Assembly: GCF_016629525.1 (NCBI RefSeq)
Contig: NZ_AP024269.1
Coordinates: forward strand, 2,108,001-2,172,000
Direction: 5' to 3'
Length of the DNA stretch: 64,000 nucleotides
Source: Kaistia sp. 32K
GTDB lineage: Bacteria > Pseudomonadota > Alphaproteobacteria > Rhizobiales > Kaistiaceae
The position numbers and the translations under genes were made by a program. The notes below the pieces were generated by a model. The model was not told the DNA's origin. It did no database searches and worked only from the letters and a program-made list of their open reading frames with translations. Below, one piece after another: positions 45,892 to 48,806 of this stretch. The number at the start of each line of letters is the position of its first letter. The first letter of the stretch is position 1.

Positions 45892-46371
45892 ATGCGTTGT
45901 CCCTATTGCGGCAGCGACGATACGCAGGTGAAGGACTCCCGCCCGTCGGAGGACAATACGTCCATCCGGCGGCGCCGGGTCTGCGCGGATTGCGGCGGTC
46001 GGTTCACGACCTTCGAGCGCATCCAGCTGCGCGAGTTGACCGTCGTGAAGAAGAGCGGGCGGCGCGTTCCCTTTGATCGGGACAAGCTGATGCGGTCCGT
46101 CCAGGTCGCGCTGCGCAAGCGGCCGGTCGATCCGGAGCGCGTCGAGCGCATGATCAACGGTGTCGTCCGCCAGCTGGAAAGCAGCGGCGAAAGCGAGATC
46201 AACGCCGAGCAGATCGGCGTCTATGTCATGGAGGCCCTGAAGGGTCTCGATGACGTCGCCTATGTGCGGTTCGCCTCGGTCTATCGCAATTTCCGCGAAG
46301 CCAAGGACTTCTCGACCGTCCTCGACGAGCTCTCGGCTCAGGACGCGCTGGAAGTCGACACGCGCGATTAA
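45892..46371 (+). CDS. nrdR: Transcriptional repressor NrdR
   Basis: 159 residues. The zinc ribbon has Cys3, Cys6, Cys31 and Cys34 with [15 protein letters not shown]; an ATP-cone domain follows (about 49-139: [20 protein letters not shown]). It senses ATP/dATP and represses ribonucleotide reductase genes. It lies between glyA and ribD, as in many alphaproteobacteria. Confidence 0.97.
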
Positions 46372-46424: not shown

Positions 46425-47564
46425 ATGGCGACAGAGCGGACCGCGAGCGCCGATCCCGAGATGGACCGCCGGCTGATGGCCGTCGCGCTCCGCCTCGGGC
46501 GCCGCAATCTGGGCTCCACCGCGCCGGCGCCCGCCGTCGGCACCCTGGTCGTCGGCTTTGAGGCGGAAGGCCCCGTCATCGTCGGTCGCGGCGCGACCGG
46601 CGACGACGGCACGTCGCAGGCCGAGATCGCCGCCCTAACAGCGGCCGGAGCGGCCGCGCGCGGCGCCACCGTCTATACGACGCTCGAACCCTCGCCCAAT
46701 CCGCTCGATGGCGTTTCCGCCGTCGAGGCCCTGATCTCCGCCGGGGTCGCGCGCGTCATCAGCGCGCTCGAAAATCCCGATCCCCGCGTCGCCGGGCGCG
46801 GCCATGCGCAATTGCGCGATGCAGGCATCGCCGTCGTAACCGGCGTGCTGGGCGACGAAGCGCGGCGGCTGCATGCCGGGCCGATCTCTGTGCTCGCGGC
46901 CGGCCGTCCTCATGTCACGCTCAAGCTCGCGGTTTCGGCTGACGGCATGATCGGCCGGCTGGCGGGCGAGCGCATGCTGGTCTCGGGCCGCGAGGCGTTC
47001 GCCCGGCTGCAGACCATGCGCATCGAGGCCGACGCCACTTTGATCGGCATCGGCACGGCGCTCGTCGACGATCCGAGCCTGACGGTCCGTGTGCCCGGGC
47101 TTCGCGCCCATTCGCCGATCCGCATCGTCCTCGATACGCAGGCGCGGCTGTCGCCGACCTCTTCGCTCGTCAAAGGCGCGGGCGACACCGCGCTCTGGCT
47201 CGTCACCTCCTCGGAAGCGCCGCTCTCCAACCGCGATCGGCTGGCAGCAGCGGGCGTCGAGGTGATCAACGTCGGCACGGGATCCGGCGGCGTCGACATC
47301 GAGGCGGCGCTCCGTCTGCTTGCCGAGCGCGGCGTCACGCGCCTGCTGGTCGAGGGCGGCGCCAAGGTCGCGGCGTCACTGCTCCATCGCGGGCTGCTCG
47401 ACGAAGTGGTGCTGTTTCACGCGCCGGTGGTCGTCGGTCCGGATGGTGTCCGGGCTCTTGCCGGCGGCGCGCTCTCGGCGATCGAGCGCAGTCCGCGGTT
47501 CCGCCGCATCGAGGAAACGCGTCTGGGCGAGGATCGCATGGTCCGATACGAAAGGTCTGTCTGA
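46425..47564 (+). CDS. ribD: RibD-like protein: degenerate deaminase domain fused to intact reductase
   Basis: 379 residues with the usual RibD layout. The deaminase half (1-145) keeps the fold (PAPAVGTLVV, GATVYTTLEP) but lacks the zinc site: the H-A-E motif reads Q65-A66-E67, and the two cysteines of the canonical PCxxxxxxxxC reach are Ser90 and about Ser98 in LEPSPNPLDGVS. The reductase half (about 150-379) looks intact: VTLKLAVSADGMIG, VDDPSLTVR, LLVEGGAKVAASLL. The protein would reduce the deaminated pyrimidine but not deaminate. It sits in a normal ribD-ribE-ribH run. Confidence 0.92.
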   Translation: MATERTASADPEMDRRLMAVALRLGRRNLGSTAPAPAVGTLVVGFEAEGPVIVGRGATGDDGTSQAEIAALTAAGAAARGATVYTTLEPSPNPLDGVSAVEALISAGVARVISALENPDPRVAGRGHAQLRDAGIAVVTGVLGDEARRLHAGPISVLAAGRPHVTLKLAVSADGMIGRLAGERMLVSGREAFARLQTMRIEADATLIGIGTALVDDPSLTVRVPGLRAHSPIRIVLDTQARLSPTSSLVKGAGDTALWLVTSSEAPLSNRDRLAAAGVEVINVGTGSGGVDIEAALRLLAERGVTRLLVEGGAKVAASLLHRGLLDEVVLFHAPVVVGPDGVRALAGGALSAIERSPRFRRIEETRLGEDRMVRYERSV

Positions 47565-48176
47565 ATGTTCACGGGTATCATCTCCGACGTCGGCAAGGTC
47601 ACGGCGGTGGAGCGTCGCAACGACGTCAACAAGATCACCATCGACAGCGTCTATGACGCCGCGACGATCGCCATCGGCGCCTCGATCGCCTGCGCGGGCG
47701 TCTGCCTGACGGTGATCTCGATCGACCCGCGGCCCGACGGACGCACGCGCTTCGATGTCGAGGCGGCGCCCGAGACGCTGGCGCTGACCGAGGTCGGTCA
47801 CTGGGAAGAGGGCACCGAGATCAATCTCGAGCGCGCGCTCAAGCTCGGCGACGAGCTCGGCGGCCACATGGTCTCCGGCCATGTCGACGGCCTGGCGACC
47901 ATCGTCAGCCGCGAGGATCTCGGCGAGACCACGCGCTTCGTCTTCGAGGCGCCATCGGAACTCGCGCGCTTCATCGCCACCAAGGGCTCGGTCGCGCTCG
48001 ACGGGACGTCGCTGACGGTCAACTGGGTCGAGGGCAACCGCTTCTCGGTGCTGCTCATCCCGCACACGCTCGCCACCGGCGTGACGACCTGGGGTGCACG
48101 CCAGCCCGGCGACCGCATTCATCTCGAGGTCGACCAGATGGCGCGCTATGTGGCGCGACTGACGGAAGCCGCGTAA
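47565..48176 (+). CDS. ribE: Riboflavin synthase, alpha subunit
   Basis: 203 residues. It starts MFTGIISDVGKV directly after the ribD stop, in tandem lumazine-binding domains: ASIACAGVCLTVISID in the first and GSVALDGTSLTVNWVEG in the second, with GGHMVSGHVDG between. It converts two 6,7-dimethyl-8-ribityllumazine molecules to riboflavin. Confidence 0.95.
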   Translation: MFTGIISDVGKVTAVERRNDVNKITIDSVYDAATIAIGASIACAGVCLTVISIDPRPDGRTRFDVEAAPETLALTEVGHWEEGTEINLERALKLGDELGGHMVSGHVDGLATIVSREDLGETTRFVFEAPSELARFIATKGSVALDGTSLTVNWVEGNRFSVLLIPHTLATGVTTWGARQPGDRIHLEVDQMARYVARLTEAA

Positions 48177-48353: not shown

Positions 48354-48806
48354 ATGAGCGAATCGGCCCCCCACCTCCTCGTCATCGATGCCCGTTTCTA
48401 CGAGGACATCTCGGACGAGCTCTTCAATGGCGCCAAGGCGGCGATCGAGGCGGCAGGCGCCACCTTCGAGCGCATCTCCGTGCCGGGCGTTCTGGAGATT
48501 CCGGCGGCCCTCTCGATGGCGCTGGCCGCGATGGATGAAGACGAGGTCAATTATGACGGCTTCGTCGTGCTCGGCTGCGTGATCCGTGGCGAGACCTCGC
48601 ACTACGACATCGTCGCGAACGAGTCGGCCCGCGCCATCATGGACATGGCCGTCATCGAGTCGCTGGCGATCGGCAACGGCATCCTGACCGTCGAGAACGA
48701 CGACCAGGCCTATGCCCGCGCGCGCGTCGCCGAGAAGAACAAGGGCGGCGCCGCGGCCGAGGCTGCTCTCGCCATGGTCGCCCTCCGCAACAAATTCGGT
48801 CTGTGA
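48354..48806 (+). CDS. ribH: 6,7-Dimethyl-8-ribityllumazine synthase
   Basis: 150 residues from the ATG at 48354 ([19 protein letters not shown]), with AGAGAG before it. Family marks: [46 protein letters not shown] and [16 protein letters not shown]. It makes the riboflavin precursor from the ribitylamino-uracil and 3,4-dihydroxybutanone phosphate. Its stop overlaps the nusB start region. Confidence 0.96.

Follow-up and report, generated by a model that had tools for sequence, protein, structure and literature searches.

Sequence evidence that RibD has lost its deaminase site throughout Kaistia while its reductase half stays under selection

Results

The ribD locus of Kaistia sp. 32K

The window analyzed here, a 64,000-nt stretch of the Kaistia sp. 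32K genome, carries ribD on the plus strand at 46425..47564, a reading frame that is open throughout and encodes a 379-residue protein, which we describe as a putative pseudo-deaminase joined to a pyrimidine reductase. By profile, the whole protein is a full-length RibD (TIGR00326, 218.9 bits; cut-off 156.35). The C-terminal half contains the reductase domain RibD_C (46902..47555, plus strand; PF01872, 140.9 bits; cut-off 24.1), and the N-terminal half contains a CDA-type domain that spans approximately residues 12-148 (46458..46868, plus strand), scores 19.1 bits with PF00383, below the cut-off of 25, and has an active site that is erased in the alignments described below.

The gene order at the locus is glyA, nrdR, ribD, ribE, ribH, nusB and thiL, where the names of the genes around ribD are our own presumptive assignments, with synteny as a guide. 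The presumed nrdR is the upstream neighbor (45892..46371, plus strand), and this order is the same in the Kaistia-clade and other loci. The reading frame taken as ribE (riboflavin synthase; 47565..48176, plus strand) begins immediately downstream of ribD and is followed by ribH (lumazine synthase; 48354..48806, plus strand), which was likewise named by synteny and for which we chose the start. In the Kaistia-clade loci that are long enough to reach them, ribE is present in 10/10 and ribH in 9/9. An Rfam scan of the window found two tRNAs only and no FMN riboswitch.

The genome is a single contig of 5.35 Mb, and the window's ribD is its sole TIGR00326 match over the cut-off, which is the case that a first-pass annotation of this DNA had considered. 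Two weaker TIGR00326 matches correspond to the places of TadA and a TadA-like gene. None of the three further RibD_C matches (75.1, 42.2 and 34.4 bits, all over the cut-off) is another full RibD, and the one whose sequence was read (L002) does not have a deaminase part.

Residues of the deaminase active site

The residues were mapped by phmmer alignments to the solved RibD proteins of B. subtilis, E. coli and A. baumannii, in which the motif is ungapped, together with a MAFFT alignment of relatives. The deaminase residues of A. baumannii RibD are given as Asn28, His54, Glu56, Cys79, His81 and Cys88 in PMC3668577. In the window's RibD, the residue that corresponds to the substrate-binding Asn28 of the A. 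baumannii enzyme is Ala35 (46527..46529, plus strand), and the His-Ala-Glu that contains the zinc His and the catalytic Glu is replaced by Gln65-Ala66-Glu67 (46617..46625, plus strand), which retains the catalytic Glu67. Ser90 (46692..46694, plus strand) stands in place of the first zinc Cys and Ala99 (46719..46721, plus strand) in place of the second, so that Gln65, Ser90 and Ala99 occupy the places of the His, Cys, Cys zinc set of HxE and PCxHxG(R/K)TPPC.

These alignments bear out the Q-A-E that the first-pass annotation had read in place of H-A-E. The same annotation had placed serines at both zinc cysteines, which holds for the first position but not for the second, as Ser98 aligns with a Pro position, one residue off the position that is occupied by Ala99. 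Mutants of the zinc ligands are described, in work cited in PMC3668577, as having their deaminase activity abolished and their reductase unaffected. With the zinc and substrate residues gone beside a reductase half that is under selection, the deaminase of Kaistia RibD is very probably dead, as had been suspected at first pass.

The loss extends across the genus

Our sample of the family comprised 28 genomes, 14 from Kaistia and 14 from eight other genera. Both zinc Cys and the substrate Asn are absent in all 14 Kaistia genomes and present in all 14 genomes of the other genera, with the Asn position being Ala in 14/14 Kaistia and Asn in 14/14 others. The lineage-wide loss that had been raised as a possibility was thus found, and a sequencing or assembly error, which had been the standing objection, is ruled out by the agreement of 14 Kaistia genomes. 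Within Kaistia, the zinc His is kept in 10/14 and the catalytic Glu in 7/14. The substitutes at the two Cys positions differ between Kaistia species and there is no new uniform letter; the RibD of K. adipata (L130) has one of the most eroded sites, in which six zinc-loop residues are missing.

In addition to the family genomes, we aligned a set of named loci, the best 80 of 226 relatives. Among these 80, the 10 loci of the Kaistia clade are without the Cys pair and the Asn, 68 keep the N/H/E/C/C residues, and two (L145, L150) did not align. Of the 10 loci with a lost site, seven come from named Kaistia species, one is labeled Mesorhizobium, and two belong to metagenome assemblies labeled Hyphomicrobiales and Bosea. 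We noticed that the records labeled Mesorhizobium sp. BR1-1-16 and Bosea metagenome assembly (L133, L134) contain Kaistia-type ribD operons, and both records are probably mislabeled.

From the reductase half we built a tree of 36 rows, consisting of the 28 family genomes and 8 chosen from the named others. The 14 Kaistia sequences lie on one side of a single branch with a support of 100/99; therefore, one loss suffices to explain the lost group. The row nearest to Kaistia, which has an intact site, is that of Prosthecomicrobium pneumaticum, and this join has a weaker support of 93/82.

We also searched for alignment columns that separate the 14 Kaistia from the 14 others, defined as columns with no letter overlap between the two sides and with one side uniform in at least 12/14. 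Seven of 369 columns separate them, five of which fall within the deaminase site or next to it (residues 35, 63, 90, 92 and 99); of the remaining two, 195 lies inside the reductase half and 373 at the end of it. In TadA, which served as a control, the same kind of test found no separating column, either between 13 Kaistia (G009 is not represented) and 14 others or between 13 and 12, after two non-Kaistia paralogues (G018, G023) were dropped.

Outside the family, a class-wide RibD search matched 248 of 318 genomes at E 1e-15. In 30 of the 318, the best RibD is unusually weak (E above 1e-65; for example G047, G052, G063, G108, G180 and G300), and further deaminase-site losses may be found among these 30.

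The reductase half and its selection

The reductase site was compared using the active-site residues that PMC3668577 names for the A. baumannii enzyme; in that paper, Asp204 and Glu290 are described as disputed candidates for the residue that starts catalysis. The positions of Lys156, Arg188, Arg211 and Glu290 are uniform in 14/14 Kaistia and in 14/14 others. The window's RibD keeps these four positions as well as that of Asp204, and it is without Ser172, Trp174 and Arg181, which none of the 28 family members has; the reductase site of the family is therefore atypical whether the deaminase is dead or not. The earlier statement that the reductase motifs are kept is right for the Lys, the Asp, the two Arg and the Glu of the window's gene, but it does not extend to the Arg-Trp pair and the Ser. 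The position of Thr176 is Ser in 14/14 Kaistia and Thr in 12/14 others.

The Asp204 position, which is residue 215 of the window's RibD (47067-47069, plus strand), is Asp in 14/14 genomes of the other genera and in 68/68 named others among the best 80 of 226. It is kept in 7/14 Kaistia, including that of the window. The other seven have Asn, His or Ala there (the changes are in the column of L015, L017, L019 and L021-L024), and they are exactly those without the deaminase Glu. The reductase is therefore not untouched across the genus, and this counts against a reading of Kaistia RibD as an enzyme reduced to its reductase.

The median ratio of deaminase dN to reductase dN is 1.43 in Kaistia versus 0.84 in the other genera, with 91 pairs on each side. 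Over all pairs, the median dN/dS, which is a rough ratio as dS is often near 1, is 0.30 for the deaminase and 0.24 for the reductase in Kaistia, a small gap that also counts against the reductase-only reading, and 0.27 and 0.38, respectively, in the other genera. In the 19 close Kaistia pairs, defined by a reductase dN below 0.08, the equally rough dN/dS is 0.05-0.11 for the reductase and 0.07-0.25 for the deaminase, and in one of these pairs (L015/L023) the deaminase value is below that of the reductase. Both halves of RibD are constrained, the reductase more strongly, which is in keeping with a functional reductase and a dead domain that is retained as a structural part.

Search for a replacement deaminase

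A second RibD-type gene was not found in the 14 Kaistia genomes, each of which has one TIGR00326 match over the cut-off. PF00383 matches number 2 to 7 per Kaistia genome, with RibD counted in some. In Kaistia soli (G010), whose assembly is rated 100% complete, PF00383 finds no more than two matches at E 0.01 or better, one of which is TadA as read from its sequence and the other a presumed cytidine deaminase, judging by score and length. The cytidine deaminase of the window's genome scores 132.4 bits with TIGR01354 (cut-off 113.65).

An amidohydrolase of the 8-oxoguanine deaminase family is present in 13/14 Kaistia and in 9/14 genomes of the other genera, whose RibD is intact. One such protein (P0002) scores 595.6 bits with the 8-oxoguanine deaminase profile NF006055 (cut-off 532). 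In K. terrae (G013), the gene is absent at E 1e-60 and the operon runs on unbroken in its absence (L240), so that this enzyme fails as a general replacement. The operon, which we observed in Kaistia and relatives (L237:4629-14004, L238, L240, L241 and L242), contains RidA-like, creatininase-like and peptide-type ABC transporter genes and from none to three 8-oxoguanine deaminase-like copies.

We also observed a gene for an isochorismatase-family cysteine hydrolase on the minus strand between ribE and ribH (L122:6325-7020; also in L015, L019, L022, L023 and L133-L135) in 4/14 Kaistia (G006, G010, G011 and G012), a distribution too patchy for a general replacement. Around the RibBA and ribN genes, inspection by eye of the window's genome and five stretches of G002, G003, G006 and G010 revealed no deaminase-like gene. 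C2 deamination in Kaistia is probably done by a non-RibD enzyme or bypassed by a detour.

The rest of the riboflavin pathway and growth

The RibBA-type gene of the window's genome (L118:5213-6316; other copies in L097-L110, L248-L253 and L255-L258) matches the RibB domain with 232.9 bits (TIGR00506), and its RibA match is below the cut-off. The zinc cysteines of RibA (GTP cyclohydrolase II), a motif that is seen intact in a homologue resembling URC1, are missing in 14/14 Kaistia RibBA copies. They are also missing in 10/10 readable sequences from 12 non-Kaistia loci, of which L247 and L254 gave no motif, and PF00925 found no match in the non-Kaistia genomes G021 and G023. Since the RibA motif is missing in Kaistia as well as in other genera, the gap at the entry step looks older than the deaminase loss. 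With both the RibA motif and the RibD deaminase site missing, two early steps are without an assigned enzyme, which again counts against the reductase-only reading.

A second PF00925 gene is found in 13/14 Kaistia and in G027, and in the window's genome it adjoins a DUF1688-like gene; we take this pair to belong to uracil catabolism, with the PF00925 gene as URC1. A creatininase-family gene is present in 14/14 Kaistia and in 27/28 genomes of the family, and for one such protein (P0004) all NCBIfam matches are below the cut-off.

One FMN riboswitch per genome was found in 13/14 Kaistia, and none was found in G002. In 13/13 cases it directly precedes an EamA-type transporter gene resembling that of the window's genome (L117:5513-6680, minus strand), which we take to be probably the riboflavin importer RibN. 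This arrangement would also suit an auxotroph and counts against the reductase-only reading. With regard to growth, PMC8360860 describes an isolate that is 99.5% like K. adipata by 16S and was kept when turbidity rose in a mineral-salts medium with one carbon source. The isolate had been picked from LB and was identified by 16S only, and in the text of PMC8360860 that was available the word 'vitamin' is absent, the recipe of the mineral medium lying in a work cited there. The growth of this one 16S-identified isolate in mineral medium points, though indirectly, to prototrophy in Kaistia.

Discussion

We consider it probable that Kaistia RibD is a pyrimidine reductase with a dead deaminase domain and that a non-RibD enzyme supplies the C2 deamination. 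The zinc site was lost a single time, before the Kaistia species diverged, and the dead domain is retained, probably for folding or assembly. We infer a pathway that is still running, in which the reductase would work in riboflavin synthesis beside RibB, RibE and RibH and an enzyme outside the RibD family would deaminate at C2. More tentatively, Kaistia may make riboflavin without a zinc GTP cyclohydrolase II of the familiar kind or a CDA-fold deaminase, either by means of an unrelated and so far undescribed deaminating enzyme or, as the boldest form of the proposal, by a xanthosine-type entry without the 2-amino group, for which no deaminase would be needed.

The main rival is that Kaistia is a riboflavin auxotroph, which imports riboflavin and whose synthesis genes are relics or have another use. 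The FMN riboswitches followed by EamA-type transporters, the two steps without an assigned enzyme and the changed Asp204 position in half of the Kaistia reductases would all be in keeping with such an organism. We nevertheless regard auxotrophy as unlikely, because the reductase is under purifying selection in the close pairs, long after one old loss, ribE and ribH are present in every Kaistia-clade locus that reaches them, and a Kaistia-like isolate was kept for its mineral-salts growth (PMC8360860).

Somewhat less probable is the recruitment of the 8-oxoguanine deaminase-family amidohydrolase to deaminate the 2-amino-pyrimidinone of the pathway. Isocytosine is a substrate of this family, P0002 scores over the profile cut-off, and the gene is nearly genus-wide. 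It also adjoins a gene of the creatininase family, to which BrbF belongs (PMC9478397), but this neighbor is only putatively BrbF, given its NCBIfam scores. The absence from the contiguous operon of K. terrae, the presence in genomes of other genera that keep an intact RibD, and the catabolic look of an operon with a peptide-type ABC transporter all argue against a recruited amidohydrolase.

A second role of TadA or cytidine deaminase in riboflavin synthesis, as the missing deaminase, is improbable: the two, the latter as a presumed identity, are the sole PF00383 matches in Kaistia soli, but no column separates the 13 Kaistia TadA sequences from those of the other genera, and the cytidine deaminase of the window's genome scores as an ordinary one. 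Finally, deamination by the altered domain without zinc is very hard to reconcile with Cys replacements that vary by species and with the inactive zinc-site mutants cited in PMC3668577, even if the Glu is kept in half of the Kaistia sequences, the His in 10/14 and the domain itself in 14/14.

The reading that we prefer, a reductase with a dead deaminase domain, has its closest parallel in plants. The plant PYRR is also a RibD homologue whose deaminase-like domain is without the catalytic residues and whose protein is a reductase (PMC9678776), a likeness that for Kaistia is drawn from the gene sequences. Unlike Kaistia, in which we found no such partner, plants pair PYRR with PYRD, a RibD-type deaminase. 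The plant-like split that had been suggested at first pass is therefore upheld in part: a split pathway is probable, though with a partner of another kind than in plants, as no second RibD-type gene was found in the 14 genomes and the only PF00383 matches in Kaistia soli are TadA and the presumed cytidine deaminase. Compared with the bifunctional RibD/RibG, the Kaistia protein has the same domain order, the same place in the operon and the same reductase Lys, two Arg and Glu, but it is without the zinc Cys pair and the substrate Asn. A. baumannii RibD differs further in that its reductase Arg-Trp pair and Ser have no counterpart in any of the 28 compared members of Kaistia's family.

The archaeal route, with its stand-alone reductase ArfC, also has a reductase without an assigned CDA-fold deaminase, and in a control search PF00383 found no match in M. 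jannaschii and S. acidocaldarius. DUF447, which we take to be the family of MJ0699, was matched in four archaeal controls but in 0/28 genomes of Kaistia's family, in which respect Kaistia differs from the archaea. HVO_2483/MJ0699 is listed as a prediction in PMC8305020, and its place in the table there suggests that the entry stands for the deaminase step. Within the Rhizobiales, Sinorhizobium BrbF is a creatininase-family riboflavin formamidase, so that in Sinorhizobium and Brucella, too, the enzyme for an early riboflavin step comes from a different family (PMC9478397). However, the step there is that of the formamidase, and the introduction of PMC9478397 describes the bifunctional RibD as retained for deamination.

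Judged from the alignments, Kaistia has indeed lost the RibD deaminase site, and has done so across the genus, next to a reductase half under selection. The kind of degeneration is already known from the plant PYRR; what is new is the setting, without a known partner. Literature searches on Kaistia and riboflavin, on Kaistia and sole carbon source, and on RibD with a lost deaminase, covering titles and abstract openings, returned no report of the finding.

Kaistia is a bacterium of soil and water, and bacterial riboflavin synthesis is usually taken as nearly fully assigned. Family profiles call Kaistia RibD bifunctional, as it passes the RibD cut-off, although one of its two halves is probably dead. 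PMC3668577 mentions RibD as a proposed target for antibacterials. A culturable genus whose sole RibD would have a dead deaminase is a well-defined system in which to look for the missing enzyme, and, as some archaea are also without a CDA-fold match, an answer in Kaistia could carry over to them.
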